Origin: Ascochyta rabiei
Taxonomy: Eukaryota; Ascomycota; Dothideomycetes; Pleosporales; Didymellaceae
DNA length: 64,000 bases
Assembly: GCF_004011695.2 (NCBI RefSeq)
Contig: NC_082424.1
Coordinates: 186,001-250,000, forward strand
Direction of reading: 5' to 3'
Shown: one piece after another, positions 1 through 52,640 of the stretch
Position numbering within the stretch: position 1 is the first letter of the stretch
Layout: the number at the start of each line of letters is the position of its first letter
The notes under the pieces: model-generated
The model's database searches: none
The model's input: the letters and a program-made list of their open reading frames with translations, nothing else
What the model was told of the DNA's origin: nothing
Made by a program: the position numbers and the translations under genes

Positions 1-3000
1 CTTGGTGGCGTAAGGGCTCTGGTACGTACCATTGGCAATGCTCTAGCTGGCTGCACACTCTTACACCTACAATAGGAGCTGGAGTTAAAAACATCTTGTA
101 TAGATTGACTGGCATGCGTATGCAAGCTGAAGCAGGATATTAAGCAAGGATTAGCTGCTACTTATTCCCTATCTCACAATGGTTACATCGACTTAGCACG
201 ACAGTGTGAGAGCACAGGAGGAATTGCATGTCTCTACCATCAAATTTGAGCAACTTGTTGTTGCTTAGCAGTAGAAATAAAGTAAGGGCGAACGTCGAAC
301 AACGGACTGGGGCCATCTGCGAGCAATCTGTTGAGACCGCGTTACGCGCAACTACTGTGGTGGCTGTTTTGGAGAATGCAGATTGCGTCTCACTGAACTG
401 GATAAGTAAGTGTGCATTTGGCGGCTAGGGCACTACATGAATATGCGATCGGCAATTCCAGCGCGCCCCCCCCCCCCCCCCCCTGCTACTGGCTGATGCT
501 TAACTGACTTATAAGCAAGAAAATCGATATATAAACGCAGGTCCAGATACAAGTTCATTCTCTAGTCTACCCAAGGTCATGACTTAATTACAACAGTTTT
601 AGGACGTCTGTGAAGATGAACGCTGGCTTTATGTCTGTAAACTATTTCTGTGGTATCTACAACCTAAAGATGTGCTACCTCCTTCAGCTAACACTAAAAA
701 CTGGACGCCATTCTGGGTTTGAAAATCATCGCTCCATGGGCTGGAAACACTAGCAGAGCAATTGCGACATCTTAAACCGGACGAGGTTGACAGAGAGTGT
801 TTTAAAATAACGGAAATCATAATGTTAGCAATGAAAAACCTTGTGGTAGGATCTGATTCTGAAGTGCTTGTATCGATACTTGCTGACAAAGGTCTCTAGA
901 TTGAGTTGCTTAAGCCTAATGAAAGCAGGTGTTAACCCTGTGCACGCGCTGTTAATCCGCATTCTTTGACTAGTATTACTGGCTGCGCCATACAACTTTC
1001 CTACGAACATTTCTAGTTGTTGCTGCAATGGGTCTGTGACCAGCAATCAGCATTCCCGCAATCACCCACAGATGAGCTTGTGAAACATCTTTAGCTGGGT
1101 ATGACCGTGTGTGTGGCATCTGGTCAGGAGCTGAGATCTTGTCTCTGGGACGAACGGTACGGTGCTGAGCTACTTTTTTGCAATAGAAGCTGATCTATAC
1201 AGCCTCAGAACCGTGCTACAGATGTACAGCCTTAACAAGCTCTTAAAGAGCCCTAGCCGTGTACATCAGACAGCGGTCAATTGAAGCTTTAATTTTGGGA
1301 AAGGAGGTATTGAATCTAAGCACATAATCTGAGAATGCTGTGAATATCCCGCTTGCTAATTGTCTGAGACGTGCACTGTGCCCTGCATACTGCGCCCCGC
1401 ACATAGCGTGAACATTAGGGTGTATAGTTGTATAAACAAGGGTCCCTAGTAGAGAAATCAAGGAATTGCTGGGATGACTGTCACAAAGCATGGACACGCC
1501 ATGTCTGACCTAGGTACACCTAATCAATTCTGGACAATAGCCGCCTAGAGAGTGATGCGTATGCGGCTTTTACCCCTAATATTGCTAAAGCTAAGCAGTA
1601 CTGCAGAGTGGTGCTAGCGGTGTCTTACCCTAAGATATTAAGCTCTGTGGCTTTGGAAAGGCCGCAATGCACAGGGAAGCTTGGATTGAAACAACATTTA
1701 AGGCAGCTTTCGCCGGCTTGTGGTGATTTTCGTCGAATTCAAGATCTGCAAATTCTGACACGCAAGCACAACATCGCTCCAGGCGCAATCGCTTTCCCTA
1801 TTTCTGGCTTGATCTAGCAGTTCTGATCTATGTGCAGCAAAAGATGTTGTACCTCCTTGGGTTTACCATGCACCTGGCGGGTGTTGATCTACTATTGTGC
1901 AGTAGACGTCTTACACTCAGGTGGCCTAAGCGTTAGCTCACTACTTGAAACTAATAGGACAGCTGCGTTTAGCGTAGAAGTGGGGACATAGCGGCGCAGC
2001 TGTTGTTCTTACTGGAAGATGGCTTGAGCGCGAAACGCGCTTTGCTTGCTTTTAGTAAATTGAGCGATTTCTTTGTTTTTTGCAACTCCCTCGCTTTTAT
2101 CGCTATCTTGCCAAGATGTCGTCCTACTTAGAACACCCTGAACCTTGCACATCAGATCAAGTTGATGAATCTTAGTGTTGATGCTAAGGAGGCTTATTGG
2201 AGCTGCATTAACCCGGACCAGCTTCCTGTTCTGAAAAGAGGCGAAAGGCGCAATTGCATGGCTAAGATGATTTTGATTGATCAGATATCATACGGTCATC
2301 AGAAGTTATAAAGTCACTGTTGATCTGCGAAGCACCTGCTAACCCCTCTTTTTGCTGGGTAAATGCGGCGCGGTACTTGTTTCACGCATGCTGCACACAC
2401 CACCAAGCAAGTTAGGCTATTGAAGTTTAATCGATAAGCTAAGAATTGAAATTGTAACTGCGATAAGCGTGATGTAGAAAAAGGTGTCTACATTACTATT
2501 GTTTGGTACTGACTTGATCATCTGGAGGACGGATTGTTCGTTCCACATGTTGCCCCAGTGGTGGCTTACGGATGAAGCAAATGCAGAGTACATAGCGTCC
2601 GTCAATTAATAACCGCTGACCCTGTCCCTTAGCGCATTGACTTTACACAAGATGCTGAGATAATGCAATGCATGTTATATTGAGGCGCTTATCTACCTGC
2701 TACTTGTTGTTTTAATCTATATCTGTCTTAAAACGGCATGCATAATGGCTCTCTGCACCTTGCATTGTCCAAGACGTGCTTTCCTCCAGGTGCTAATCCA
2801 CAGCCTTATCTTGCTATAGATAAGTGGCAAGGATCTCCTACTGCCGCTAAGGAGGACCGTTTTTACTAACCTCTGCGATTGTAACACAACCAAAGGTAAG
2901 GCATTTGAATTAACAAATGCATCCTGACATTCTGACTTTGCTGAAGATGACATTACTGAACAAGAAGCTGAGTCTTCTTTGGGACTGCATAAGACCTGGA

Positions 3001-3940
3001 GCATTAAAGCTCCAGGATCTTGTATCAGAGCTCGATCAGACCCCTGCAGAGTGCACTTTTGAGCGAATTGTTTTGATACCTTTGGAAAAGCAAACACTTC
3101 TGCATCTTATCTTCTGCCGCCCTGGTGAGAAAGGGTGTGAATTGAGTTATATAATCGCCTTGCTTAAAAGTGTTAATGGTTATCTGGGCGGCAGTTGAGA
3201 ATCTTACGGTAAAGGTTCAGTGTTGCGGGAGATAATTAGCTCCCTGAGATTTATTGGCCTGGAAGACAATAGTGGTGGCGAAAGATACATCTGCTTGGGA
3301 GACAACTTCGATATTAAGGAGATAACTGGTTCCCTGAGATACATTGGCTTGGAAGAGGATGCTGATAGCAAGGAGCTATACCTGATGTGGTGTAGTGAAG
3401 ACTCTGCTAGTGTTAAATAACAGCGATGCTGATTTGGCAAAAAGACTAACTCTGATTAATACGTCAAAATTGCCTAGGCCATAAGATATTGCATTTGAGA
3501 GTCTCCTCACTCGTATGAAGTATGCTGATTGGAACTATTGGTTCTGTACCCAACTACTCTTCTTATTTTACGATAGCGCTTGAATTCAAGATCTGTTTGT
3601 TTGAATTTGTCCTATTGCTAATATACGCTATCAAAAGCTTATTAAACTAGTTGAGCCCACTAATAGCGTAAGATTATGTGGTATCAAACTGCTTTACAAG
3701 ATTTGAGGTGTTATTCCTTAGGTTATGATGGCGATTGATTGATTGCGCGGCACGTAGTTAAACACCCATACAAGCTGCTCTCTTGAAAGAGGTAAAAGCA
3801 AGGCTCTGGAAAGCATTAATCTTGTACACGTAAGCTTCACTATTCTCTTTTTGTTTCGCCTACCTGCTTTGCCCTTCTAACCCTCTTCTTGGAGGATGAA
3901 CTGACCTTGATCACCAGAACTTTTTGAGGGCTTCTTCTAC
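1..3940. other. decayed DNA, no gene recognised
   Basis: This stretch shows long partly readable frames on the plus strand (for example around 1,530-1,815 and 2,100-2,890) broken mainly by TAA and TAG, the pattern seen in the recognisable pseudogenes further right. I could not match any of it to a family. An open 66-codon stretch at 3,220-3,420 carries an imperfect internal repeat (REIISSLRFIGLEDN and KEITGSLRYIGLEED). A short C-terminal hydrophobic segment is readable on the minus strand at 2,417-2,605. It is probably cargo of the same large element, but that rests on position and mutation pattern only. Confidence 0.4.
466..483. repeat. poly-C run (18 C)
   Basis: An uninterrupted run of 18 cytosines in otherwise AT-rich decayed sequence. 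Homopolymers of this length are often miscounted in assemblies, so the exact length is uncertain. Confidence 0.9.
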
Positions 3941-3945
3941 GTATC

Positions 3946-4435
3946 ATGGCATCCCACCAAAGGTTACTACAGAATCTCGTTTCTAAAATGCTAAGAGATA
4001 CCGAAAACGTTCCTAAGCCGGTTGTACCTGATTCCAGGCGGCAGCAATGCTGCCATCCTGATCTGTAGGCGCTGCTAAGAAAATATAGACTTGTAGATGC
4101 CAATGACTTTAAGCAGGATTATTAACAACTCAGGACGATATGTTAATAGACTGCAATTTTCTGGCGCTCAGCCAGCATCCTACGATGATCTGAAGTCAGA
4201 TTTAGTTAGGAGAGCTAAGAGTGTCTCAAACACCAAGCCTCTGAAATCTCTGAATGATGGCGCATCTTATACGAAAACAAAGCGCAAGTCTCCTAGTACA
4301 CAATGCGAGGCTATGGTCCCCTTAACAACCTATGGAAACCGCAATATCTGCAGCTTATCTAAAAGGAAATTCTACAGACGTCTCTACGACCAGGCTCTTG
4401 ACTTGATTAGGAAAGCGGTTAGAAGGGTTTGCTGA
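3946..4435 (+). pseudogene. unassigned decayed ORF, plus strand
   Basis: Two overlapping frames look protein-like here. One is open for 112 codons (4,097-4,435) and encodes a basic, Ser/Arg/Lys-rich segment. The other starts at an ATG at 3,946 and is readable only through TAG, TAA and two TGA codons. I cannot decide which frame was the gene and recognise no domain in either. Confidence 0.25.
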
Positions 4436-4538
4436 TTATCAGAGTCTGTGACGGCATATTGTCTTAAGGATAAAACAAGCTTCTTTCTTCTAAAGTAAAT
4501 CTATCTATTGTTCTCTTTGTGATTACACATTACAGAAC

Positions 4539-4805
4539 TTACTTTTGCGGTTGCTGCGCTTTAAGGTGCTGCAGTAAGCTGTATTGTTCCATCTTAAGCT
4601 TCTTGAGCTTTTCCTTTGCTCTCTGAATATTATCTATTAGATCTTGGAGCAAGATTGTATGTTCCAGCATTGTGGTTTGCGATGTTTCTGATAGCGACAT
4701 GGCTTTAGGGCCTAAGGGTATTTCTTTAGGTAATGTTGAAGTTGATGTTAAGGCCTGAGAACCCTTAATAGCCGTAGATTGCGTAGAGTCTACTGGAGAG
4801 GGCAA
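4539..4805 (-). pseudogene. small Gln/Lys-rich coiled-coil ORF
   Basis: An open frame of 88 codons on the minus strand. The N-terminal half is Ser/Thr-rich. The C-terminal half has heptad-like spacing of Leu/Ile with Lys, Glu and Gln (LLQDLIDNIQRAKEKLKKL), which suggests a coiled coil. Comparable small Gln-rich helical ORFs lie at 9,216-9,452 and 34,137-34,301, also on the minus strand, but I could not show that the three are homologous. It may be an exon of a larger broken gene. Confidence 0.3.
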
Positions 4806-6029
4806 TCTTAGAGGCAGTAATGGAGGCTTATGCGTACTGGTTGTATTGTATGCTCCTTAGCCTCAGCCTATAACTAATTTGGCTTCAGGCTTTCTAATAA
4901 ATCTGTGTTAGTAGCTGAATTCTCTCCGTGTTGTAGAATTGTACTTTAAATTCGCTTTTTGGAATTGACGGCATATTCTGCCCTGATGTGTGATGCCGCT
5001 CTTGTATGCACCAATTAAGTTTGCAACAAATCTGCAGTTTAACCTGCACTATTGGTGCATATAAGCCAATCCTATAAGTCTGTAAGGTGACACCACCTCT
5101 CTTTTGCAAGATTCTGGTCATTCTTAACAGGGGGCGGGTCGGCCCTACTTGGCGAACACTTGGCTATTGTATTGCGCCTTTGTTATCACATCTGCATGAA
5201 GCAATAAGCGCCTTTAACTATGACTGGCTATTCCCTGAGTTGGCCTCTGGCCTGGAGACGCTTTTTTAGTCCAGCGTAGGGAGAGGTGCCATTGTACTGT
5301 TCTAAAGCACCGCGCAAAACACACTACCCACTAATGTTTGGCGTTAGTTGGTTAATAAGAGGCCTATTATATATCTACACGTCACATTAGGTGCATACAT
5401 ATGCACAATTCTAGTCTTTTCACCCTGGTCTGGTCGCACTATGCATGTTGAGCTTGGACTTTAGCTTAATATTTGATTGTAATTGAGCTCTGCATATGGC
5501 ATGGGATAGGCGCTGCTGAAGCCCGTTGATGTTACCATCTGTCTCAAAATCCCTGTGGCTTGCTTGTTTAACACAGGCTTAATTAACATGACTAGGTAGT
5601 TTGCAAGCTTTATATGCAACCTCTACGCAACTCTGTGTTATGCGTCTAGGAAATCAGTTGCTAATTAATTGCAAGCGGAGAACTATCATCACACCTATAA
5701 CGCCTTAATCGTTACCTTATATCAGCGCGTTGATTGATAGGTGGTGCTGATCCCAACTACATCTAAGGTTACAGTTAGAAGATATCTCGTCAATTATTGC
5801 AAGGTCTAGACTGTTGCCTAACGCGAAGAGTGTCCCTTCTTGGCTTAGATCCCTTTAAGGCATGCTCTCTGTTTATACGTCATCTTATCTAAGACACAGA
5901 GATGTACCACAGAGGGACAGGAAAGGCGCTGGATATGCTTGGCTGTTAAGGGTCTGTGTATGCTGCATCTTCTCGCAGATCTAGAGCAGCTGAAGGGGGG
6001 TATGGTCTGTTGTTTCGCTGAATGATTGA
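4806..6029. other. no gene recognised
   Basis: Only short scattered open stretches on both strands, none with a recognisable motif. Composition matches the rest of the decayed block. Confidence 0.4.
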
Positions 6030-6850
6030 TATCAGATACTGATCAATCTTATCTCTGTTCTTAGTGCACCAATTACAACATGGCGCTTCCAGAGACGTCA
6101 GCGAGAAAATGTTGCGATATTGAAGGAAACATACATAGAATCTCAACCCTCAGCCCTACATCTTTTCCAGTTATCTAGTCTAACCTCAGAAGTTGATGCT
6201 GAACGCCCACGTTTTGATCTATTGTACAATGATCCCATCATCTATGCTTGTGAATGTGTCTATTTCTTCCAGCAGGAACCTTCTGTGCTTAATTGCCTAA
6301 GATCTAAGGCATTCCAACTGTTGAGACCTGGATTGATGCATGCAAACCATCTGCAGAAAAAATTCAAATCCAGGGTAGATAGCCGATGATATCTGTACAA
6401 CATATGGTTAAAATGGCGTGAAATAAGGTACGAAACGCATACTCTGTAGGACTGATTGATTTGCTTCGCCTTAAGATGCCTGGAATGCTTGCTACATAGT
6501 CACAAGCTGCTACTTCTTTATATGGCAGAGCTGCTAGAAGACTAAAGCTAAGACTGGAAGCTAGCAAGTAATATTGTGCACTGATGAAGAGGTTTTGCTT
6601 AAGCTTTTCACGCCATAAACTTCTTGATCCAGATTTAGCAAGGGGAATGGTGCTTGTGACCTGATCCATGACGGCGTTCCTGGATTTCTTCCTATTTCAC
6701 GGTAGGGGAGGTTTCAAACACTCCCCTGCTGATGCTGCTTGACGGCGCAAGATTTAGTTATTACTTTGTTGTTTGACCAAATTGCTAATTTGGTGCTCGA
6801 AGTTGAGGTGAAGTTTGATTAGAAGGAATCGTGAGCGCAATCTCTTGAGC
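6030..6850 (+). pseudogene. unassigned pseudogene, plus strand
   Basis: An open stretch (6,120-6,389) continues in the same frame to about 6,850 if TAA/TAG codons are read through, with few other interruptions. The predicted product is rich in Leu, Trp and aromatic residues (for example KAFQLLRPGLMHANHLQ and later SWISSYFTVGEVSNTP). I know no family that fits. The in-frame stop pattern (TAR at presumed Gln codons) supports a once-coding frame damaged by RIP. Confidence 0.3.
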
Positions 6851-6999
6851 TACATGCCTGAGGTATTCTTAATCTGCCGCACTAATGCGAGAATTGTGCT
6901 TAGAGAGCTGGGTTGATCTGAAGCAGGACTAGAAGCTGTCTCTGTATTCATTTTTGACAGATAGAGACAGTCTATGCCACATTGCAAGATCATCTGGAT

Positions 7000-8800
7000 T
7001 AGTCTGGTCTTTCTCCTTTCGCCTGGAAGCAATGGGTCAGCAAGAGCGGCGTTACACCAATTGATGATGTTAGAGGAAAGTGTCTGAGCGACCATTCCTG
7101 TCCTGTGCCAGCAGTAGGATTGCCTTTGTTGTCGCTATAATTGTACGATGTAAGATGCATGCCATCTATATTGTGACTGGCTATCTTTTGCTGGATCGCT
7201 AACATCTGATAGCCTTCTAAGAGCTTGCGAAGGAAATGCGACCTCATATTGGCACTGAAGCTGTGCACCAAGTTGGACCCAAAATACCCTTTGAGAGTAT
7301 AGCAGCAGCATAAGGCACATGAATCGCCATTAGGGTTGTTAGGTAGCTTGGATAATTTTAGCTTTTGATGTCTTAGTATAAGACTACAGAAACTTACCTT
7401 ATACATGCTTGCACTCTAGGGTCAACCATGTTGGCTTTTGGAACCAGTCGAACGAAAAGCGTTGGTCCAGCGTTCAGCAAGCTGATTAAGGATCCCAAAA
7501 GAGGTAATCGCACCACAATTAAGATCGATGACAGCCAACACCTAATGGTCGCGGCCTTTAGATAGAGACTGCTGGGCGAAGTTGACATGAAACAGCAGCA
7601 CAATTCCTTGACTTCCGGGCCTTGCGTCAGCTAGTACTTTAAGAGCTGTAGGGCTGTTGATATTAAGATTGAGAGAATCCGCTACATGGAATCCTTTGCG
7701 ATGGGCAATGAGTTGCAATAGTCTTATGAATATAGTATTATTGATCTGGTTACCAGATTGAAACTGCCCTAGGGTAGTCTAGAGTTGCTTTAAGTCTGCG
7801 CAGCTGAGCCAGGAAGGGGCCACACCTTGATCTACCGCGGCCTGAATGAGGCATTCCACGTCCTGGACATCATCCCTAAGCTTTTCAGGAATGCTTAAAA
7901 GAGGACTAAGCTTGGAGGATTCCTCGTCGTCGCTGATCTCAATAGCATGATCGGTGCTGGTGCGCCTACTTTGTTTTGTTCTCTTTTTCTTAACTGCATT
8001 TATGGGTATCTGAAAATTATTTAATTAAATTGCATTTGACCTGCAGCGATTACGACCCCTATAGCACCAGTTGTAAGCATTCAGACTACTTAAGGCATTA
8101 GAAAACTTGTAGTTGATCGCAATGGCAAAGTTTGCACTGGTGTTGATGACCTTATGGTAAGTCCGACCTGGCAGCGTGACCATCACCTTGCCAGGACGTT
8201 GAAGGACTAGGTCAAATTTAATAGCTCTATCTTGGAGCCAATGAGGACTGAGGATGATATGATAATGTTGCATAAATTGCAAGTAGTTTTTGCTACTAAA
8301 CTGCTCACGTACGCATTCTTTGAGCCTTGGATTTAAACTGCAATTACAACCTAATACTTCTCAGCTCCTGCTAAAAGCATGTTGGCTGATCCTGCAAGTC
8401 CGTCTTTAATGTGCATGGTTGTTGGTGTACCTTGGACGTAGCTCCTATACTAGTATGGACTATTGATCCCTGAGCAGGTCTGGTCGTTGGCTAGTGACAG
8501 GTCTAGGATCTAGGAGTCTCCCAATCTCCTGACCTGTTTTGGTATTGCTTGCGTGGGGCCTAATTGTGTGTGAAACACATGAGACACTATTATAAACTGA
8601 GTTGATGCATGCTTAAAACTTTTGTTCTGGGGAGTTTACTTTCTTGTACTTGTTAAGATCTGGCAATTGAAAATCTGCTCTAGCTCGATCGTTGCGGTAG
8701 ATGTGGTGGAACCCATCCACACTGTCTTGAAGGAAGAAGCATGTGCTATAGCTTTTGTTGCTGCAAGTCTTGTATTAAAGCATTTAAGCAAGATCTGCAT
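7000..8800 (-). pseudogene. JmjC-like + Ulp1-type (C48) cysteine protease gene, broken
   Basis: Read leftward, the first part (about 8,800-8,025) resembles a JmjC 2-oxoglutarate dioxygenase domain: QGTPTTMHIKDGLAGSANML near 8,400-8,450 (metal-site region; Lys sits where a metal-binding acidic residue is expected) and QRPGKVMVTLPG followed by YHKVINTSANFAIAINY near 8,100-8,200. A Lys/Arg-rich linker leads into a Ulp1/SUMO-protease-like domain: DH-stop-VLAVIDL near 7,540 (His motif, Trp lost to TAG) and PNGDSCALCC near 7,310-7,340 (catalytic Cys retained). A GTAAGT donor lies near 7,397. At least one frame change near 8,510 and several TAG/TGA codons destroy the frame. JmjC enzymes demethylate histones or hydroxylate proteins and Ulp1 enzymes cleave SUMO-type conjugates; whether this fusion did either is unknown. 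N-terminal material may extend to 9,125. Confidence 0.6.
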
Positions 8801-9215
8801 GATCCTAAGATATGGATGTAACTAAGACAAGATATCCGCGCTTATCAACAAGGTGACCCTGCAAAGCAAGACGTGCTTTTGTAATTGTTGATACTATGTT
8901 TAACCCTAGAGCTTCATGCGTACGATGATAACGTAGGGAAGGCGCATTGTGTGTTGGTCTTTTGTTGACTGGTTCTGCGCAAGTGTAATTGTGAACAGGA
9001 AGACTAGCCGGCGCATCGTTGATACTGCTGAGAGGAAGCTTGTGTTTTAAAATGTCTTGATTGGCTGGTGGACAAGTTGAGGAGATATCATCAGCCTGAC
9101 CTAAGGACGCGGCCAGTTCCGCCAAATGACTTTTCTTTACTCCTTTCTTGGGTTGAGTCTCCTCCAGAAGTTGATTTATGATACTGTTGAACCGCCTCCT
9201 TATGTCTTGAATTGT

Positions 9216-9452
9216 TTAATGAAGGTTAGCTAGAGAGCGTAAATGTACGCTTAACCCTTTTCTATAGAGAGTCTGTTGGCGCGCTTGTGGCTTCTTAAAT
9301 TTATTTGATTGAGCATGCCAAGCCTGTAGGTTCTCTTGTACTGCTTGAAGTAATGTTAATACCTTAGAAGTTTGGGAGAGCAACATTGCAATTATGGCAT
9401 CTGATCTCTGTATTGAAGACATTGTGCTCTGTCTGTAAAATAAATATGGCAA
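9216..9452 (-). pseudogene. small Gln-rich helical ORF
   Basis: An open frame of 78 codons encoding a helix-prone Ser/Gln/Leu-rich segment (MLLSQTSKVLTLLQAVQENL) with a basic tail. No family is recognised. It could be an exon of a larger decayed gene on the minus strand. About 580 bp of unassigned decayed sequence follows before the DUF7924-like gene. Confidence 0.25.
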
Positions 9453-10034
9453 TTGTGTCCCCTAGGGCGGAACCAACTTGTCAACTATCTTTGCTAGAAA
9501 CATAACGCTGATCAGTAAGATGATTATAATTATTAAGAGCCAATTGTTAGACGCATGGCGTTGCTGTGATTAAGCTTTGGTGATCTAAGGGCATGGATTA
9601 TGGGTCGCGCACGAAGTAACGCTGCAGTGTGGCTATTTATTCATCTACCTTAGGTAGTCTGTGCGTTTCTCGGCACGCTAAGACCTGCGCCCAACCTTGC
9701 CCTACCACCCCTAGCCGCCTATGCACCTACAACCCCAATCCTCCGCTTCTTATGCTATACGCCTTACTTCATCGCAGTACGCGCAGATAAGAATGCCTGC
9801 ACCCCACACAGCAGCCAGTACAATAGCCATTAACTGTTCAGCAGTAGCATTAAAGAAGAGGAAACATAGCACAGAATTAACAGGTATGTGTAGCTGTCTG
9901 ATGGTGTATGACTCTGACCAGAACTGCCAGAACCTTCGCAACACATCTGCTGTGTGAAGCCAGATAGCTACGGCACGTATTTAAACAAACTGAACAGGCT
10001 GGTACATTGTTATACCGCTGTGATGCTATAAGCT

Positions 10035-13345: not shown

Positions 13346-13687
13346 TAAGCAGAAGAGGCATGATTATCATTTATTTGGTTTCCATACTTGTATCTCGAAG
13401 ATCTAACAGTGCGAATTAAGTCTCTTTAGCACCCATAATTCCTGCATGGATTTGACTGAACTTAAAGCAGGAAGAGGGTTTGAATGTGGTTGTTGTTGAG
13501 ATTACGTGTAGCCACCTGGCCGTTAGTCATCTAATCTTTGTTACCATCATGACCTTGCGGACATGAAGTAGACTGCTTAGAATCTTATCACTGCAATGCG
13601 AAAGCCAGAGATAGGTAGAAAATATTTCAATTTACTTTAAGATATAAAAGCTAGTTATTAGGCTACCTATGCTAATTCAATACTGCA

Positions 13688-38993: not shown

Positions 38994-39106
38994 TGTGATA
39001 TTTTGTAGACATGAATATTACGGCATTTAATGCGATTTTAAGTGGCAGCCTATTAACAGAAGCTTTAATGGCAGTATTTTAGTTTGATATCTTAAAATTG
39101 ACACTT

Positions 39107-41182: not shown

Positions 41183-42144
41183 AGTTGAATATACAGGGCG
41201 TTGTTTGTTTTTCTAGAAAAGGTATTAAACTCTTTGCAAAGCTACCCTAACAGTGTCTAGCATAGCGAAGGTGATTGACAAGACTTAGGGCTCACTAAGA
41301 TAGCTTTGAACTCGATGTTTGCCACTATTTGCCTTAGAAACGGCTTGAGCTGAGTTAAGTGTGCGTTTAGATGTGCGCGCTATTTAGTAATTCTAATAAA
41401 CATCCTTACAGAGCTTTTTGTTTTTTAATTTCTACAAACAATATCTAAAGACCCAGCATTAAGCTCTTCTAATAATGCAAGATAGCTTCTTATAATATTA
41501 AAACACTATTAGCAGGTCCTAACTGTACACATATATCAATTCTCTAAAAAAATTCCTGCTAAATTATGCGTGCTTACTTTGCTAAACCTCTAATACATTC
41601 ATACTCTCGTGGTCTGACACAGCTTGAAGGCATTTATTTAGTTCTTTTTAAGACGCACGCTCAGCACTGCTCTTGCTGCTTAAGGCTTTCTAATGGCATC
41701 CTGCCATCTTCTTGCAGACAGGGTTAGGCACTTGTTTCCCTGATCTTCTTGTGTTTCTATAAAGACAGGAACGGCATTATTTTCAGCACCGAAAATGAGC
41801 TAGAGCGTCTAGTTAGGGTAGAATTGCAAAGTTATAGGACTACTGTAGCAGCACTACTAGATCTCTAGTACTATTAATATGATGAAACACGTTTAGGAGG
41901 CAATATAAAGGTAGCAGAGGCAAGGCTTTGTAGATAAGAAGATGCTGGTCACTTAAGTCGTGATCTTTAGCAAGGCCCAAAGCACTGAAATGGGGGGTAC
42001 AGAGTCACATTTGCAGTACTAAGGTGCTAATAGGTGGGACAGTAGCGGTGATCATCAGGGATAATAGCAACAGGAATAGGTTGAGTTTCTGGATCTGGTT
42101 GATTGACTAGGAAAATATAATATCCCAGGCTTCCTTGTCTATAT
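41183..42144. other. no gene recognised (space for an NLR N-terminus)
   Basis: Strongly decayed sequence between the captain's zinc fingers and the TPR array. It is about the right size for a nucleotide-binding domain, but no P-loop or other motif was readable. Confidence 0.3.
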
Positions 42145-44050
42145 CTATTCTTGCGATTCTAGTTCTTCTGAAATGGTGACTCCGACTCCGCACATCTGGA
42201 TGTAGTGCCTCTTCTGGAGATGAGCCCGTAGGCGATCCTTGGATCCAGCTGTCACACTACAGCCCTTGGCCGGGCATTTCTGGTGACCTTCTACCTTTTT
42301 CTTCATGTGCACACTATTAATATGAGTTTTTAGATGCTAAGGATCTGTGAAACGTCTCTCTTTATAGATCAAACCGGCTCCATATGGACAGCGACCCTTA
42401 GAGATAACCAGGTTCCGCTACAGTATCACACCGTAGATTCTGTTATGTTCTAGGTTAAGGTCTAGACACATGTGGCCCCTAATTAGACAGTTGTTAATAA
42501 ACATAGCGCATTGCACGCAGAAGGTTACAGAGTATATAATCTGGTGACACTCTAACACATGCCTTACGCAGTAACAGTGGTTCTTTAAATTCCCTTTGCT
42601 GTACAACTTCCTAAAGCAGTAAGGGCACCTGCGGTTCTCTTGTGGTGACAAAACAGGGTCTGGATACTAGGCTCGGTATGGTTTGGGGCTGGCAAGGCCT
42701 ACTAAAGGCTTGACGCACTCTCTAAGAGAAGCAGTCTTGGCAGTCTACAGAGTTTCTAAGACGCGCGCATAAAGAGGACTGTACTTCAGCATCTGTTTAA
42801 AGACTGCTAAAGATTGCGGGAGCTGGAGAAGTGATACAGATCCTTAATTGTTGCAATCTTGTGCGTCTAAGTCTAATATACTTTTAGAAGGCATATGCAT
42901 CTTTCTAACGCTTGCGTTATACTTGTTGCGCGCCATAATGTGCTGTAGCTTTCTAGCTTTTAGGTATATTACTCTATCCGTAGGTAGTTGCATGCTAGAT
43001 TTGGCTTTCTCTAAAGCGCTCTTAGAGACAACGCTACCTATGCCTATTTGCGTTCCTGACAGCTTAGGGGCGCTGAAGTTACAAGTGACAGTAATGCTCT
43101 AAGTGAATTGTGTATGTAAGGCGTCTTTAGGTTTTCTGTAGGCTATACTCTAGCTATTAACGCTAATAATTGGCGCTGCATAAGCATGCCAGACGCGGTC
43201 GCCCTTGTGGCCTAGGGCTTCTTTAGTGCTTTTAGAGCTCGCAGTAGCTAAAGTAGACATGTTAGATCCTTTGCAATAAGTTGTCTGTATCTCTTACCTT
43301 CTATGTTGTTAGCAACACCTTGTCTGAATAAATAAGCTGTGACAGGTTCCGTATAGCCCGCATCTAGGCAGACCTGTTCTAGCATTGAATTGACAGACAT
43401 AGCACTCCAGATCTCTTAGGGATGGGTTTGCCTACTAGGCTTTATCTTACAAAGGATAGGCACGTCTTTTATCTCCGCTTTTATCGCAAAAACCTTAGAG
43501 CCAGCTGTGGGTGGAACCTAGCGGTTGTTGAGACTTTCTAGGGAGACGTTGTCTACAAAGATATCATCTGCTAATGCAAGGGCTAAGAACTTTCTCACAG
43601 GGCACCTAAAGCGCTCTCTTAGGTTTGTCTCCTCTTTTAACGTGATTGTTTTACTATGCAAGGTCAGTTACACAGGTATTGTTGCTTCTAACAATACTTA
43701 TATCTTGCTTGCATTATCCCTGTTGAACTTGTAGTTCTGTAGTTTAATCTTGATTTCGTACGTAAGCTCACTCCTTCTCCTAACAAGGCTGAATGTAACA
43801 TCGCTGTAGTGCACACCTTCGTTAGAACCGCGGTAAGTTGACAACTTAGTGAATTCCCTAGTTCAAAGACCCCAGATGCAGGTAACATGAAGCCAGAACG
43901 AGAACTGCACTATTATTTGTGGAGAGGCGTAGGTTCGCTCGCTACAGTTCTAGAGGTAGAATAGTATTTTATTAGCATTGGGGGCGTATGCTATAGCTTG
44001 GGTTCTTAAAGAAGTTAAGGCACCCTTAGATTTAAGGGTGGTATTAATAA
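42145..44050 (-). pseudogene. DUF3435 tyrosine recombinase ('captain'-type) with C2H2 fingers, broken
   Basis: Read leftward: YRGSNEGVHYSDVTFSLVRR (about 43,800), then CPVRKFLALALADDIFVDN (about 43,580), SMLEQVCLDAGYTEPVTAYL and FRQGVANNIEG (region of the catalytic Arg; about 43,350), EALGHKGDRVWHAYAAPI (HxxR/Tyr region; about 43,210), then a helical linker and C2H2-type fingers: CPYCFRKLYSKGNLKNHC (42,580-42,630) and CPAKGCSVTAGSKDRLRAHL (about 42,270). This is the domain order of fungal DUF3435 proteins, which include the Starship captains that catalyse excision and integration. Stops and changed catalytic residues make it inactive. Its reading direction, away from the nearby euchromatin boundary, matches the 5'-end captain of a Starship extending leftward. 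The gypsy element lies about 200 bp upstream and may have separated the domain from its 5' exon or promoter. Confidence 0.8.
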
Positions 44051-44248
44051 ACTAAATTAGAAATTAGTGATGGTTAGTTGTATGTTCTGTCTACTTAGGA
44101 CTTTACCTCTTTTATGTCCGCAAACTCTTTCCTAGACCAAATTCTGTCTGTTTCTTGTGTATTCTGTCTCGCAATCTGGTAGAACTCCTTCCTAAGCGTC
44201 TGAATTGTGATCTTGTTTCTGTTAATTCTGCCTTTCCTAGTATGTACC

Positions 44249-44441
44249 TGTCACGGGTGTTCTCCCTACAACAGGGGATACCTCGGACAGACCCCGGGCC
44301 AAGCCCGGAGACCCACCGACCAGTATATAATATCCACACACCTGAAGACTCATCCATTAAGGATTCGTCTTATCTCTCAATATCACCTATTATTTCATCC
44401 CATATCGCTCTGCTCTATTGCCTGCCTACAGTGCCCTTACA
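44249..44441 (+). repeat. 5' LTR (193 bp)
   Basis: Starts TGTCACGGGTGTTCTCCC and ends CAGTGCCCTTACA. It contains a TATATAA promoter-like motif near 44,323. It matches the 3' LTR except at three positions. Confidence 0.95.
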
Positions 44442-44520
44442 ATTCGAATCCTTCATACTTCCTCTCGGAACAGGCAGCCAATTGGCAGCAGAGAGACGGG
44501 AAAAAACTCAGCCATCAGCA

Positions 44521-45813
44521 ATGGCTGGAGGACAACGCAACCTCCGCTCAACCACTAGCGACGTGGAGGAGTTGCCCCCTCGCGACGACCTCGGTCAGGA
44601 GCCAGATGCGCAACGCCGCGACGACGCGCCCAGGGTATCGCCGGCACCCATGGAGCCACCGCTCAACCCTCACATCAGGGGCGGGTCAGCCACCACGGCG
44701 GCAGGCATCGCGACGCCAGACGTCCCAACGCCACGCGTCACACAAATGGAGTCGCTACAGGCTTCCATCCCGTTGTTGCTGGAGGCACTCAACGAGGCAG
44801 AATTGTCCGGCGCCCCCGAACGAGAAATTAAAATCCGGCAGCGGCAATTCAACCGGGTAGTGGAGACCCTGCAGCGGACGCACGTCGGACCCACGCCGGG
44901 TAGCCACCGCCCAGCGTTCGACGAGGCAGGCAAGATAATGCGAGTCCTCAACAACGTCCAACCTAAGCCAAAACTTGGGACGGATAACAAGCCTCCATCG
45001 ACCCAGCAGGTGGACCAGTGGATTAAGGACATAGACACGGCGTTCCAGTACGCTCAAGTAGTCGAAGACTCCGTGACCCGCACCTATTAGATTATAGGCA
45101 CTATCCACTATAGTGTCCATTGAGAATTGATCCAACAACGTATCAACAAGGGATCAATCCGAACCTGGGCTAACCTCCGCGCAGAGGAGGAGCAGCTTGT
45201 ACAAGACCCAGTCTTCACTCGGTACGAGAACTACGATAAGTACTTCAACTATGAGTGGAAGGCCGACGATTCCGTCAACACCTTCCTAATAAAGTTGAAC
45301 AAGCGGGAGTCTCTACTGCCCCGCAACTTCGCTAAGTTTGACGACGGCACGGATGACTATAAGTTCAAGATAGCGTTTGTATGGAGCCTTACTCCCCACA
45401 AACTCCGACGTGAGATCCAGCGCAATGGCAGCCTGGAACACATCACTGAGTGGATAGAGTTTGAACGGGCCCTCCGTAACGCAGAGACCGCAACAGTCCC
45501 CTTGAACTCAAGCCTCCGGGCTGAAGGCAGCGGTCGAAACAAAAGACCTCACTCTTCTCCTAATAGGGGAGGATTTAAAAGGCACCACAGCCAGGCCTCG
45601 ACCCCCTCCGGGAGCGACGCCGGAAAGCAGCCGGGAGACTCCCGGCCAGCAACCAATAACGCTAATTTGTCAGGCGGCAAGGGGTCCCATAGGGGCAATT
45701 ACCACCAACAATCTAATAGGGGTGGTTATCATCAGCAACGGGGCCATTAGAGAGGCCGCGGAGGTGGCAACCAACAGTCCAGTGGAAGCAACCAGGGAAA
45801 TGGGAAGCCCTAG
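44521..45813 (+). pseudogene. gypsy gag
   Basis: Starts at ATG 44,521. The N-terminal part is Arg/Pro-rich and probably disordered. The retrotransposon gag core is at about 45,230-45,500 (YEWKADDSVNTFLIKLNKRE, then HKLRREIQRNGS and ITEWIEFERAL). The C-terminal Gly/Asn/Gln/Arg-rich tail has no CCHC knuckle that I can see. In-frame TAG at 45,088 and TGA at 45,121, and TAG codons near 45,750 and 45,811, interrupt it. pol follows in the -1 frame, so a programmed -1 shift or a separate ORF is likely in the active relative. Confidence 0.88.
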
Positions 45814-48800
45814 TCGCCAACCTTTCCCACCTACGACTGGGGCCGGAAACCAAAGGGAAGCAGACCCGCATAGCGGTCACTGTCCAGCTAATTAACTCTA
45901 AGGGCAACCCTAAAACTCTCCGGGCCCTGTACGACTCAGGCTCGGAACTAAACCTCATCGCCGCACAGGTAGCCATAGACCTAGGACTCAACCTGGCAGG
46001 GACTGACCAGCGACCGAACGCGGTAGTCCTAGACGATACAAAGCTGTCGTTGATTAAGCAGTACCAGTTAACGATGGTCTGCCACGACAGCAAGGGAACA
46101 CCCAAAACAGTTAGGCCAACCAAATTCTGGTCTACACTATTTGTCGGGTACGACCTAGTATTGGGGTATCCATGGCTGGCTGAGGCAGACCCATGTATCC
46201 GTTTCTCCACAGGAACCTACGAGTGGTTCACTGACGACGTCGAGAGAGTCCAGCTGGTGACCGCCGAACAATTGTTCAGTGATCTGGAGCCAGGCGAGCA
46301 GCCATACCTGCTACAGCCCGAGAGTCTGGGCATGGGTGGTCCAGCGGACGTCCATCGGACGGACGCCGGACAGACGCCGGACGCGCCCCTCGCCGAATGG
46401 TCAAGGATTATGGCAGTGGGAATCGACGGCGGCCCCATCCCAGAAGATGACGCCCCAGATATAGAGGAGCTTAAGTATGTGCCAGAGCACCTCCATCACA
46501 AGTGGTTTGCCTTCAGCAAACGGCAGACGAGTGTGTTGGCACCACACCGGGAGTATGATCACTCCATAGATATCAAGGCTGGTGCCAAGGTTCCTAACCT
46601 CCCGATCTATAACCTGTCCCGCCGAGAGCTGGATATACTCCGGGAATACCTCGAGGCGGCACAGGAGAAGGGCTGGATCCGCCCAAGCAAGTCGCCGGCG
46701 GGAGCCCCCATCCTGTTCGTCCCCAAACCTGATGGTACTATGAGACTGTGCGTCGATTACTGGGGATTAAACAAGATAACCATCAAGAACCGGTATCCTA
46801 TCCCACTGGTGAGCGAAATGATGGATCGACTGTCGAAAGCGAAGGTCTTCACTAAGCTAGATCTACGTGACGCCTATCACAGGCTCCAGATCAAGGAGGG
46901 CGATGAGTGGAAGACCGCGTTCAAGACGCGATACGGTCATTTCGAATACCTGGTTATGCCGTTCGGGCTGGCCAACGCACTAGCCACGTTCCAATCCTAT
47001 ATCCACCAAGCCCTGGGAGGCTTACTGGATAGGATCTGCGTGGTGTACCTGGACGACATCCTTATCTATTCCCAGAACGAGGAGGACCACGACAAGCACG
47101 TCAAGGAGGTCCTAGATCGTCTGGTTGAGTGGGGGATGTTCGCGAAGGCAAGCAAATGCGTCTTCTCCAGTAAATCAGTAGAGTTTCTAGGATTCGTTAT
47201 TACCCCAGACGGTGTGGTAATAGACCCTAAGAGGGTCCGTACTATCACCAAATGGCCCAAACCATCCAGTTATAAGGATATTCAAGTGTTCTTAGGCTTT
47301 GCCAACTTTTATCGGCGATTTATATTCAACTATTTAGGAATTGTCTGGCCGCTCATCGACCATATGACGGCCGCCCAGCGCCCGGAGGAGGACCGGGGGG
47401 TCCCCGGTCAAGAAGAGGGGGGGGCGAAACCGAAGAAGAGTTAGAAGGGACCAACAAAATGGTATAAACTATAGCACTGGCCAGAGGAAGCTTGCACGGC
47501 GTTCCTTACAATCAGGGAGAAGTTCACAGGGGCCCCAGTGCTTCAGCACTTTGACCCGAACAAGCCTATTATTGTCCTTACCGACGCGTCAGATTTCGCC
47601 ATGGCAGCCATCCTGTTGCAACCCCAAACGTCCGACCTGGCCACAGAGCTTCACTGGAAGCCTGTGGCGTATTAGAGCCGGAAGTTCACGGGCCCATCCA
47701 TCAGATGGCACACCCACGATAAAGAACTGTCCGCAATCGTCGAAGCCTTTAGGCAATGGAGACACTATCTCAAACACGCCCCGGCAACAATCAGAGTACT
47801 CTCAGATCACAACAACCTGAGGTACTTCATGACAACAAAGGAGCTCTCTCCTAAACAAGCCCGATGGGCGGAGGAGCTGGCAAGATTCGACTTTGAAGTC
47901 GAATACAAGCCGGGACCTGAAAACGCGGCGGACGGCCCATTGAGGCGTCCAGATTACGCACAAGGTCTCAAGGTTAGAGAACAGCAGGCCCTGCGGGACG
48001 CCATGCTACCCACCTTACAACAGAAGCTTCAGATCTGGACAATTCGCAAGTCCAGGGCTTAACACGATGCACAGGCAACATCTGGGCTTAACGTGCCCGT
48101 GGCAGACCCAGCAGGGGTCCGGCAACCACCCGAAGTCGTCCCTGAGGAATTCTACCGGCATCAGGTCGGCCATAGAGATTCGTCTCCCACGGATCCCGAT
48201 CCTCCATCCATTAACCAAAGTCAGGATCGGCCCGTTACCGAAGCCAGGGGACCGAACTTTGACGTCGCAGAAGCTCTCCTTCGTAGCCTAGACGGCAGAG
48301 TCAGTGCCCCTACAAACCTTGCGAACGAAGCCGCGCAAGGAGATTCCGCTTTTGCCCTAGATACACCAGCAATCCTAGCGGATTTCGTCAAGCAGGTCCA
48401 GCAACGGGACGTACTATACCCCGGAAAGCTGTCGCTAACGACCGGGACAGATGGCGGAGCGAAGAAGGCACAACACCACTGGGAGGTTGACCCCAGTGGG
48501 ACCTTACGCAGGAGTGGGAAAGTTTAGATTCCTAATAATATCACTCTGCGCCACACTATCCTATTAAGGAATCACGATGACCCTATAGGAGGTCACTACG
48601 GCGTAGATAAGACCGCCGAAGTACTTAAGAAGAAGTACCATTGGCCAGGGCTGATGAAGGACGTACATCACTACATCCGAAGGTGTCCCACGTGCCAACT
48701 CCACAAAATCAGGAGGCACAAGCTGTGGGGCTTACTCACACCACTTCCAGTCCCTGATACTGCCTGGCGGCACTTCTCCCTTGACTTTGTGACAGACCTA

Positions 48801-49979
48801 CCGAAGTCAATAGACGCTAAGGGGAACGAGTACGACGCTATACTGGTCCTTATAGACCAGTTTAGTAAGTACGTCCGGTACCTACCCTGTACCAAGACAA
48901 TCACTGCCCAGCGCCTGGCCGAACTGTTGATGGAACAGAGCTTCTTGAAGCAAGGACCACCAGATACGCTGCTGTCAGATCGAGGTTCAGTGTTCACCAG
49001 CCAATTTTGGTCTGATATTTGCTACCACCTGACGATTGACCACCGGCTCAGTACGGCGTTCCATCCCCAGACGGACGGGCAAACGGAGCGTTAGAATCAG
49101 GAGTTAGAGACGTACTTACGCATATACATGAACTACCAACAGGATAACTAGGTAGACCTCCTGCCATATGCCAAGTACGCCTACAACTCCAAAGCTCACT
49201 CCGCACATGGAGAATCTCCCATTAAGGTCGCCTTTAGCACTGACCCTAAGGGATTTGACGGGATGCCTAATAAGCACTGGCTCCGAAAGCCCCCAGCTGT
49301 CTAGGACAAAGACGGAACCACGCCAGAGCTGCGTAGGCAGGTCGCCGGACGCTTAGAGCGCTGGCACGACATGTAGAGAACAGCAAAAGAGGCCTTAGAG
49401 TACACACAAAAGGGCAACGCCCGGTGGTACAATACGAAGAGGTCAGAACAACACTTCGCCGAGGGGGACTCAGTCCTCCTGCGGGCCAAGAACCTGATGA
49501 CGAGCCGTCCTTCAAAGAAGTTTGACGCTCGCTACCTTGGACCATTTGTAGTACTCAGGAAGATAGGAAAGCTGGCGTACAGGCTGAAGCTCCCCCTATC
49601 GATAGACAGAGTGCACCCGGTGTTCAATGTATCATTACTTAAGCGCTGGAGGGAACCCCTGGAGAACAGCGGGTTTCAGCCAGGTCCTATCAGTATACCG
49701 GAAGATATTCTGCCTGGCGACAGGTATAAGGTCGAAGGTATACTGTCACACCGAGACACTGTAGCCTAAGGAAGGGAGTACAGAGTCAAGTGGCTGGGTT
49801 GGCCCAACGAAGAGGCAACCTGGGAACCACTTGACCATCTCGACCACTGCGATGAGATCCTTCAGGATTATCACCAAAGCGTTCGCGCGGGTGATCCATC
49901 GGCGGGTGACCGGGCAGTGCCTGGGGAACTAACGCTACCAAAGCGTAAGAGAGGACGTCCTAAGAAGTCCGCCTCCTAA
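45814..49979 (+). pseudogene. gypsy pol (PR-RT-RNase H-IN-chromodomain)
   Basis: A single frame to TAA 49,977-49,979. Domains in order: aspartic protease with LYDSGSELNLIA (about 45,925); reverse transcriptase from about 46,690 with VPKPDGTMRLCVDY, KLDLRDAYHRL and the catalytic VYLDDILIYS (about 47,045); RNase H with LTDASDFAMAAIL (about 47,580); integrase HHCC zinc domain (HYGVDKTAEVL...CPTCQ, 48,590-48,700) and DDE core (DQFSKYVRYLP, LLSDRGSVFTS); and a C-terminal chromodomain (YRVKWLGWPNEEATWEP, about 49,780). A Glu/Gly-rich low-complexity stretch lies at about 47,380-47,440 between RT and RNase H. About nine TAG/TAA codons at Gln or Trp positions inactivate it (for example 47,442, 48,526, 49,092, 49,767). 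The chromodomain would target integration to heterochromatin. Confidence 0.95.
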
Positions 49980-51660
49980 AAAGGATATCCTTCTAACCCA
50001 GCCGAGAAGTGAGGATGGACGCTCCCAGAATAAGTGCAGCTGGTGGCCGAAGGAGGCCCGGCGTCTATCCGATACATCACTGGCAAGAATGGCACGTTCA
50101 AGTTAGAAGAGAAGATCAATTGCAAGGTTCATCAAAAGTCACTATAGAAGTGGAGAGTCTTCACGACTACTACCACACTAGGCAGAAGGACCGCCACGAC
50201 CCGCACTCGGGCTCATTTCGAAGGAGGGGCTACGGCGTCGACGGCCACCCGGAGTGAGCTTCGTGGGCGACGCAGATATCCTCTCGAAGGCGGCAGTGGG
50301 AGCCTGGGCGGACGACGGCAGGTCAGTACCATAGTAGTACCAGCGCTTCTCCGCCTCGTTCGCACGACCCGTCTTCTGGAAGTGCTCTTCGAGCACGGCA
50401 TCGATGACCACGTTGTTGGGCAGCTTCGCGCCGACCGTACCGACCGCAGCCTACTCATGTCAGCCTCAAGAAAAGAGGGGAGGAAAACAACGACCCGACC
50501 TCTGACCGCTCTCTCACCTGGGCGCAATTCACGCGCAAACAAACAAAAGTTTGCCTGCACCTAGGTAACACTTCCACCGACAATTGGATATTGTCCAATA
50601 ATCTCACCCGAGATTCACGTTGCAAACACAAACACGCTGGAGCCGGACCACGCTGCGCGAGAGTTCAGGCAAGGCGTCAGGCATGGCAAGGCTGACAGCT
50701 CACTGTCACAGGCCGGCATGCGGAGGAGATCCCCCGTGAATGAGCGAATCCCGCAGACCAGTTCGCGCAGGAACAGGCTGCAGGAGCCGCTGGCGATCCT
50801 CTCGCGGACGTCACCGGTTGGGGACTCACTCACTCACCACTCAGGCCCCAGGGATTTCGATCCCTGGCACAAGGCACCCAACCACCTAGGGGGTCGCGGA
50901 GAGTATAAACAAAAACGTCCACACGCAGGGCAGACCCCGGCCCAGTGCCAGTCGCCACTCGCGAGACGCAGGGAGCGGATAGCCCCTACACGTCTGACGA
51001 ACGACAGTCACGCTCCCCACGGGTTTCAGAGCCAAGGGACGCTTCGGCGTTGACCTTTGTGACGTCCAACAGTCACGCTCCCCACGGGTTTCAGAGCCAA
51101 GGGACGCTTCGGCGTTGACCTTTGTGACGTCCAACAGTCACGCTCCCCACGGGTTTCAGAGCCAAGGAACGCTTTGGCGTTGACCTTCGTGACGTCTAAC
51201 AGTCACGCTCCCCACGGGTTAAGCCAAAGGCCGCTTCGGCGATTGACCTTTGTGACGTCGGGTTCGAGCCACTGCTCACCCATCAAGCCATGGAGCTGAC
51301 AATTGCGGACTTGACCTGGGTTGAGACTCCGGCAAACAAGGAAGCGTTGCAACGACGGCGTAGCTGGCGTCTATAGGATTGCTCTTAACAGCTACCCAGC
51401 CTCACTTAATGCAGGAAAACCTGGTCGCCCGGCAACACAGCGGTGCCGCCCCAGTAGGGCACCGAGGAAGCGTCGTAACAACGGTGTAGCTGGCATCTGT
51501 AGGATTGCTCTTAAAACAGCTACCTAGCCTCACTTGATGCTAGATAGTCACCCCAGGCCACACCACATTTCTCCTGCCTAAGTTTTTCCCTCCACAGGAG
51601 GTTTTTCTAGAGCTTAATAATGGCGCTGGGGATTCCCCAAAACGGTTCGGGACGAACCTT
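49980..51660. other. long 3' non-coding region of the gypsy element
   Basis: About 1.7 kb between the pol stop and the purine tract. Open stretches on both strands have no retroelement or host motif. It holds the 65-bp tandem repeats (51,005-51,264) and an imperfect direct repeat of about 75 bp (51,338-51,415 and 51,466-51,541, both carrying TAGCTGGCRTCTRTAGGATT). Confidence 0.7.
51005..51264. repeat. 65-bp tandem repeat x4
   Basis: Units begin CAGTCACGCTCCCCACGGGT at 51,005, 51,070, 51,135 and 51,200. The last unit is the most diverged. Each unit carries GGCGTTGACCTTYGTGACGT (the last with a variant). It lies in the non-coding 3' part of the retrotransposon and could have a regulatory role. 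Confidence 0.9.
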
Positions 51661-51674
51661 CAGAAGGGGGGGGG
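51661..51674 (+). other. polypurine tract of the gypsy element
   Basis: A purine-rich stretch with a nine-G run lies directly 5' of the 3' LTR, where plus-strand DNA synthesis primes in LTR retrotransposons. Confidence 0.8.
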
Positions 51675-51678
51675 CTAT

Positions 51679-51871
51679 TGTCACGGGTGTTCTCCCTACA
51701 ACAGGGGATACCTCGGACAGACCCCGGGCCAAGCCCGGAGACCTACCGACCAGTATATAATATCCACACACCTGAAGACTCATCTATCAAGGATTCGTCT
51801 TATCTCTCAATATCACCTATTATTTCATCCCATATCGCTCTGCTCTATTGCCTGCCTACAGTGCCCTTACA
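51679..51871 (+). repeat. 3' LTR (193 bp)
   Basis: Same length as the 5' LTR and identical except for three CpA/TpA exchanges. It is followed by the target duplication GTACC (51,872-51,876). Confidence 0.95.
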
Positions 51872-51876
51872 GTACC

Positions 51877-52640
51877 CTCTACTACAGGTAAGCTTTAATA
51901 ATATTTAGGGGCACATCTGTGTTAAGAGCTTGATATGTCTCGCAGTTAGGAGATTTAAGAACGCTGCCAGCAAATCTAATATTGTTAGTTACTACTATTA
52001 GGACGTTTAACATTTTCTTACTGCTTCTAAAGTTTAAGAAGCTGGTTAACACTATCTTTTTTGTAAACTTTGCACCCTTGCTTCACAACTGTGCTATCAC
52101 CACTGGCCAAAGCTATGATATTGTTGAGGTCCTTAAAATCTATAATAGTAGCATTGCTATACTAGCAGGTTTTAGTAGCAAAAATGAAATAGTAAGGAAG
52201 AACTGAGTGTAAACTCTAGTGTGAGCGCGTGGGGATACGCAAGACCTAGGAGAGCAACAGGCAGTGCTGCATTATCCTGTCTTAGTTGTATGCAGCTAGC
52301 AAATAACTGCTCTTATAGTGTGCATTACAGGGTTCGTTCACTACTATTAGCTGTTTTAGGATCTTACTTATGGGTTTCCAAAAATCAGTTTTAGCAATTA
52401 TCTTCCCTATGCTAAGCTAAGCTAGGAGGAGACACTTTGGTAATAGGAGATTATCTAATAGCGCTGATACTGTCTGGAAACCAATATTACTGCCAAAGGA
52501 CTTTATTTCTGTCACCTGACTTGACCCTCTGCGACAGGCAAAAAAGTGAGCGAGCACAACAGATATTGCAATTAGAGTTATCTTTTACATTTTCTAGAAA
52601 AGATTTATCATAGTTTACTAAAGAAATGACCAGATGTTGT
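51877..52640. other. decayed flank of the captain region; compartment boundary
   Basis: Without the gypsy insertion this sequence would lie directly upstream of the DUF3435 pseudogene. On the minus strand a frame readable through stops runs about 52,500-52,000 (ALLDNLLLPKCLLLA, IIDFKDLNNIIALASGD). It could be the N-terminal part of the captain or another gene. AT-rich, stop-filled composition ends abruptly near 52,600-52,640, next to the tRNA gene. Confidence 0.45.

Follow-up and report, generated by a model that had tools for sequence, protein, structure and literature searches.

Gene content of the AT-rich block

As shown in Table 1, the window (a 64,000-nt stretch of Ascochyta rabiei DNA, part of contig C20) holds an AT-rich block with broken remnants of several gene families and, at its right edge, a tRNA-Gly(GCC) gene. 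A preliminary description had placed in this block a DUF3435 recombinase, or captain, at 42.1-44.0 kb pointing inward from the right edge, a TPR array at 40.4-41.2 kb, DUF3723 at 27.2-30.4 kb, patatin at 24.2-26.9 kb and ferric reductase at 20.0-21.7 kb. All of these were detected by Pfam or by homologues within the 40.9-Mb genome, the comparison loci lying on C8, C9 and C12.

Table 1. Features in and beside the AT-rich block (positions in the window).
Feature	Position	Strand	Evidence
Probable Starship, right part	1..52643	.	boundary repeat, composition, gene content; rest extends left beyond the window to C20:162255
JmjC domain fragment, cargo	8112..8327	-	Pfam E 3e-6
DUF7924 domain, cargo	10482..11159	+	Pfam E 1.5e-71
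DNA transposon, nested, RIP-marked	16871..18754	.	80-bp terminal inverted repeats
Ferric reductase, broken	20155..21218	-	tblastx to C8 frame E 8e-16
Patatin-like phospholipase gene, broken	23844..25687	-	tblastx to C8 patatin gene E 5e-68; Pfam E 0.07, below cut-off
DUF3723 gene, broken	27501..29128	+	three frames, best piece E 8e-61
Protein kinase remnant	34635..35335	-	Pfam E 2e-6; tblastx to C8 E 5e-13
Ankyrin repeats	38382..38666	-	Pfam Ank_2 E 1e-13
TPR array remnant	40283..40957	-	Pfam E 2e-26 at about 40463-40684 (-); tblastx to C9
Unnamed frame, common to C8:1294264-1294482 (-)	41569..41787	+	tblastx E 2e-11
DUF3435 captain, broken	42193..44054	-	Pfam at 43299-43604 (-), E 1e-10 and 2e-10; tblastx to C12 captain E 5e-146
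Ty3-type LTR retrotransposon, nested	44249..51871	+	193-bp LTRs 98% identical; 5-bp target duplication 44244-44248 / 51872-51876
Stretch conserved with DNA upstream of C12 captain, beyond LTR insertion	51945..51988	-	local alignment, 0/300 shuffles as good; best of 7 comparisons
Direct repeat, right copy, 18 bp (first 18 bases of tRNA-Gly)	52645..52662	+	preceding base (C) agrees with left copy
tRNA-Gly(GCC) gene, intact, with intron	52645..52732	+	ARAGORN; Rfam RF00005 49.5 bits

Pfam and tblastx to the C12 captain agree on the captain, and the profile search at 42-44 kb, whose failure the preliminary description had named as a possible refutation, returned a match. The captain points inward from the right edge and lies ∼0.96 kb from the boundary repeat when the LTR element is discounted. 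The motif HKGDRVWHAY is retained near 43209, while FRRG is seen on C12 but not in the window; both are candidates for the tyrosine recombinase catalytic residues. No recombinase was among the 18 matches up to E 1 in a PDB search, and IMG/VR contigs searched with the C12 captain gave one pattern match and no relative.

The patatin and ferric reductase calls were decided by homologues from the same genome, Pfam alone being weak or empty. The C8 patatin itself gave E 5e-8. Ferric reductase drew no Pfam hit on either strand between 19.9 and 21.8 kb, and the matching C8 frame showed NAD_binding_6 at E 0.007, under the cut-off. The Pfam searches took in 1-44.2 kb, on the minus strand apart from 14700-15000 and on the plus strand apart from 14700-20000 and 39500-44200, and, in the left part, C20:162256-176000 on both strands and 176001-178499 on the plus strand only. 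Weak matches to YwqH-like, Hep_core_N and DAN were all under the cut-off and were taken as chance.

Three of the four hallmark cargo families (DUF3723, ferric reductase, patatin and NLR) are present, NLR being represented by repeats only. Of the NLR-type remnants described earlier, the repeats held up (TPR and ankyrin, with WD40 left of the window, within C20), but searches for NACHT and NB-ARC among the best candidates of the window stayed empty up to E 1. Patatin and DUF3723 stand head to head both in the block and on C8, the TPR array follows the captain both in the block and on C9, and 4 of 9 DUF3723 loci lie at most 40 kb from a DUF3435 locus. Their meeting in this block therefore cannot be put down to separate repeats alone.

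RIP and other decay

CRI was above 0 in 21 of the 44 1-kb intervals of 1-44 kb, in none of the 10 intervals of 1-10 kb and in 1 of 11 in the right flank. Because the CRI values are patchy, RIP was partial, and these intervals rule it out as the sole cause of decay. The claim that the block is dead by RIP is right as to the presence of RIP, which explains only part of the decay.

The tRNA-Gly repeat and a second locus on C12

The left repeat copy, matching bases 1-18 of the tRNA-Gly gene, lies at C20:162255, 76.4 kb left of the right copy, and the direct repeat is 18-19 bp long (19 with the preceding C). The repeated sequence forms the start of a tRNA gene, which stands whole at one end of the element. 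The tRNA-Gly boundary repeat is absent from the preliminary description. In the 40.9 Mb the exact 18-mer has two matches, one at each edge of the block, and with one mismatch there are 7 further matches, all of them tRNA-Gly genes. Against the proposed integration, other right-edge words of at least 12 and up to 15 bases recur by chance in the scan, the left repeat shows no sharp composition step (C20:159-162 kb is already mostly 0.40-0.50 GC), and no terminal inverted repeats were found at the element tips, where they are frequent in Starships but not required.

The span between these edges, from C20:162255 to window position 52643, is 76,389 bp, and 62.0 kb after subtraction of two nested LTR elements. 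The earlier estimate was at least 44 kb; the size is ∼76.4 kb, within the Starship range (∼20-700 kb), and 44.2-51.9 kb is the nested LTR element. The proposed block 1..52640 is correct to a few bases at its right edge, but its left edge falls outside the window.

A relaxed tRNA-Gly-start pattern gave 10 exact genome matches, 8 in tRNA-Gly genes and 2 as orphans. The second orphan adjoins a sister captain on C12, which is the closest relative of the window captain and lies ∼0.84 kb from the orphan start. Both orphans have the adjoining AACTACCGAT in common, and the tip TTAGTGGAACTACCGAT occurs exactly twice in the genome, at the two orphans. An intact tRNA-Gly gene is located 54.1 kb right of the C12 orphan, where GC rises from 0.33 to 0.47. 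Another element, whose recombinase is a sister of the window captain, seems to have taken a different tRNA-Gly gene copy as its site. Several observations count against integration at tRNA-Gly genes: the C12 orphan differs from its tRNA by one base, it has no composition step (0.46-0.51 GC on its left), and the captain is on the orphan side on C12 and on the tRNA side on C20. Among seven comparisons of C20 and C12 ends, one beat all 300 shuffles (Table 1); the 194 bp directly before the captain did not resemble C12 (equalled by 137 of 300 shuffles), which also counts against it.

Reversed integration was rejected as the cause of the captain-side discrepancy, because AACTACCGAT keeps the same place relative to the tRNA on C20 and C12. 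Inversion, captain swap or nesting are candidate causes. The discrepancy, with the tip position constant relative to the tRNA, also fits a composite locus, in which an outer element at tRNA-Gly lost its own captain and the visible captain came from a second Starship nested or stacked beside it. Consistent with this, no captain remnant of the C12 kind was found at the left end when C20:162-186 kb was compared with the C12 locus by tblastx, and a captain C-terminal fragment outside the left repeat (C20:159446-159530) suggests earlier insertions. We nevertheless consider a composite unlikely: two sister captains both lie less than 1 kb from a tRNA-Gly start in a genome with 10 such starts, and with only two repeat copies on C20 no third boundary is visible.

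Far less probable is an AT-rich island in which captain, cargo and transposons gathered separately and the orphan tRNA start is chance or an unrelated fragment. Other AT-rich, repeat-filled islands exist in the genome, and the block has no intact gene left to prove its unity (longest ATG frame in 1-44 kb, 215 codons). However, chance would supply only about 6e-6 exact copies of any one 18-mer per 200 kb, each orphan goes with one of the two sister captains, the tip common to the orphans has no other copy in the genome, and C8 and C9 repeat the gene orders patatin-DUF3723 and captain-TPR.

Integration model and known systems

The Starship-like interpretation offered earlier is supported by the five hallmark families, the inward captain near one edge, the size and the flanking direct repeats. 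The AT-rich block is probably a dead, degenerate Starship of ∼76.4 kb that a captain-type tyrosine recombinase joined to tRNA-Gly(GCC) at the 5′ end of the gene. The best reading of C20 and C12 together is a captain lineage integrating at tRNA-Gly genes, with the tRNA left whole. The captain would be the agent of integration, the whole block would have moved as one unit, and the boundary tRNA-Gly gene is putatively functional.

The shared core of integration would be the first 18 bases of the tRNA-Gly gene, ending with its A box. In the integrated state one end of the element would run into the complete tRNA gene, so that the host would keep its tRNA, and the other would carry the orphan 18-base start, with AACTACCGAT next to it. 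Decay would have come later, through partial RIP, other mutation and nested transposons. Somewhat more tentatively, we lean towards a captain lineage that attaches at tRNA-Gly(GCC) genes, at their 5′ end and A box, restores the tRNA whole, can have its captain on either side of the tRNA and returns to such sites, as a eukaryotic counterpart of tRNA-borne genomic islands. In this reading the C-terminal zinc-finger-like part of the captain may be the reader of the target.

The finding bears on how captains choose sites. A defined gene start, carried by 8 whole tRNA-Gly genes, is the site here, and target choice, safe-harbour insertion and repeated occupation therefore become testable. The tRNA repeat would also define exactly where a dead Starship starts and stops, one whose genes would escape a gene caller.

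Bacterial genomic islands at tRNA genes use a tyrosine recombinase, have a repeat that lies within the tRNA gene and leave the tRNA whole. They mostly occupy the 3′ end of the gene, whereas the 5′ end is involved here, in a fungus. A literature search of limited reach returned no description of tRNA-Gly as a Starship target. Pezizomycotina Starships resemble the block in their DUF3435 captain near an edge, DUF3723, ferric reductase, patatin, repeat-protein cargo, direct repeats and size (PMC12153272, PMC12134995); the block differs in its tRNA-Gly target, 18-19 bp repeat and lack of terminal inverted repeats. In the Aspergillus fumigatus account, repeats are 2-12 bp in 19 of 20 Starships, those longer than 6 bp being tied to 5S rDNA, and 18 of 20 have terminal inverted repeats (PMC12153272). 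The same text indicates that 5S-rDNA-targeting Starships likewise find a stable target in a multicopy Pol III gene and have a long direct repeat (PMC12153272), the target being 5S there and tRNA-Gly here. Dada DNA transposons, described from fish and a protist, also insert in tRNA genes, frequently within the A box at nucleotides 8-13, but they are small elements with another transposase and 6-7 bp duplications (PMC8869645).

Boundaries of the decayed element on C20

The genome analysed comprises 40.9 Mb in 23 contigs, and the window is C20:186001-250000. The right edge of the element is an intact tRNA-Gly(GCC) gene. When 12-mers from this edge (52301-52760) were scanned against C20:86-230 kb, the longest repeat was 19 bases at C20:162254-162272, made up of the initial 18 bases of the tRNA gene and a single base ahead of them; the second-longest match was 15 bases and inverted. 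Beyond the 19-base repeat the left and right sides diverge immediately. Genome-wide, the 18-mer is present without mismatch at two places, and its one-mismatch matches are tRNA-Gly(GCC) genes in 7 of 7 cases. Both C20 copies (52645-52662 and C20:162255-162272) carry T at a position that is C in the 7 other tRNA-Gly genes and in a lone tRNA start on C12 (orphan). The element is 76,389 bp long, or 61,994 bp once two LTR elements are discounted. At the left end GC drops to 0.34-0.40 from ~162.75 kb; composition alone would not have set this edge, because GC at C20:159-162 kb is already low. Among the best 120 of 182 matches of the intact right-flank frame at 55488-57182, a protein of Ascochyta lentis shows 91% identity, and records named for Lizonia, Neodidymelliopsis, Macroventuria, Stagonosporopsis, Boeremia and Didymella show 73-87%. 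Together with the relatives of the C12 captain described below, this marks the host as Didymellaceae-like.

Repeats, nested elements and other features of the C20 region
Feature	Position	Remarks
Tandem pair	12978-13345	184 bp each, 91% identity
Transposon with inverted repeats	16871-18754	RIP-marked
200-bp repeat	31077-31276	C7 copy 90% identity; part recurs directly before C12 tRNA-Gly
Nested LTR retrotransposon	44249-51871	193-bp LTRs, 98% identity; 5-bp duplication; Ty3-like reverse transcriptase
65-bp tandem repeat	50995-51259	within LTR retrotransposon
18-bp periodic repeat	59357-60112	right flank
WD40	C20:166370-166706	left of window; Pfam
LTR element	C20:178684-185450	85% copy at C20:97448-104382

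Decayed genes and RIP marks

Block translations with stops replaced by X were searched against Pfam. Matches to DUF3435 (the captain recombinase), TPR, ankyrin and kinase were found on the minus strand and to DUF3723 on the plus strand, with JmjC and DUF7924 as further matches in the window. By tblastx, the window was compared with 25 fetched loci (L009-L033), and window 1-44060 with L021, L026, L032 and L033. The captain, TPR, DUF3723 and patatin genes named in the preliminary description were borne out by these same-genome loci, as was ferric reductase, more weakly than the other families. Patatin (-) and DUF3723 (+) stand head-to-head in the window and likewise on C8, and the order captain then TPR is common to the window and C9. 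Genome-wide, DUF3435 gave 16 matches at 9 loci and DUF3723 gave 19 matches at 9 loci; a DUF3435 locus lies within 40 kb of 4/9 DUF3723 loci (C20, C7, C8, C18), the chance expectation under uniform placement being ~0.16. Patatin and ferric-reductase matches, some under the cut-off, also occur at C7 (1.57-1.61 Mb) and C8 (1.25-1.29 Mb).

RIP converts W and Q codons to stops; it is not known to convert R codons. The tblastx-aligned pieces of six genes (pieces >=26 bits) contain 22 in-frame stops (16 TAG, 3 TAA and 3 TGA), opposite which the homologue reads W six times, R five times and Q three times. The RIP decay claimed for the whole block held for only part of it: the RIP index (CRI, >0 when RIP-marked) is positive for the captain (0.45), TPR (0.87), DUF3723 (0.21) and patatin (0.10), but negative for ankyrin, kinase, ferric reductase, DUF7924 and JmjC. 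CRI was >0 in 21 of the 44 1-kb windows in 1-44 kb and in 16/23 at C20:162256-185255. Because the sign of CRI varies by gene and by window, RIP marking of the block is uneven; it is stronger in genes with copies elsewhere.

A second instance on C12

Among 8 captain loci, the nearest by sequence was the C12 locus L026 (E 5e-147), followed by C8 (4e-9) and another at 0.007; the remaining five gave E no better than 1.5, or none. ARAGORN found no whole tRNA gene in these loci (10 kb each). When the fetched loci were scanned for the start of the tRNA gene, allowing <=4 mismatches, the C20 left repeat matched perfectly, L026 matched with 1 mismatch and all other matches had 4. A relaxed pattern of the start has 10 exact genome matches, namely 8 genes and 2 orphans; its two-mismatch matches (7) are at chance level, because the reversed control gives 17. 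AACTACCGAT directly continues both orphans, and TTAGTGGAACTACCGAT has exactly two genome copies, at these same orphans.

The C12 orphan is followed 54.1 kb to its right by an intact tRNA-Gly that points the same way. GC is 0.32-0.44 with strong RIP marks in five 600-bp samples (1206-1234 kb) and in the last 7 kb ahead of the tRNA, and 0.47-0.53 past it; left of the orphan there is no GC step (0.46-0.51). A weak NACHT match, under the cut-off, lies inside the putative C12 element (G000:C12:1217034-1217246). For the C-terminal frame of the C12 captain 12 relatives were found, and those with names come from Sporormia, Didymella and Massariosphaeria.

On C20, AT-rich DNA resumes beyond the LTR retrotransposon (51877-52643), and 44 bp within it align with DNA upstream of the C12 captain (0/300 shuffles as good; best of 7 comparisons). 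The 194 bp ahead of the retrotransposon showed no likeness to that DNA by shuffle comparison.

Putative integration site and captain placement

The C12 tip, the end of the putative element at the orphan, is an inverted repeat, GCATCGGTGG-10-CTACCGATGC (hairpin z -3.8, 1/200 shuffles as good); its C20 copy is weak (z -1.0, 36/200). The tip may be a recombinase site of two arms flanking a spacer, in which case the tRNA gene would supply the spacer and one arm. Zinc-finger matches to the C-terminal part of the captain relatives are weak, YY1 being the best (E 0.003), and our guess is that this part reads the target.

The word 'tRNA' is absent from the text of PMC12153272, PMC12506042, PMC12289983, PMC11623301 and PMC9594970, and stands once, for a synthase gene, in PMC13373834. 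No tRNA-targeting Starship was found among the matches listed for Starship and tRNA, a scope outside which key Starship papers lie, so an earlier report is possible; a literature search for Ascochyta and Starship gave nothing.

The captain lies on the tRNA side on C20 and on the orphan side on C12. Reversed integration is ruled out as the cause, because the tip keeps the same position relative to the tRNA at both loci. Outside the left repeat, C20:159446-159530 (in locus L016) holds a captain C-terminal fragment like the C12 captain, perhaps from an earlier insertion. Inversion, nesting or captain exchange remain as explanations of the differing side, the last being an idea raised in a passage of PMC12134995.
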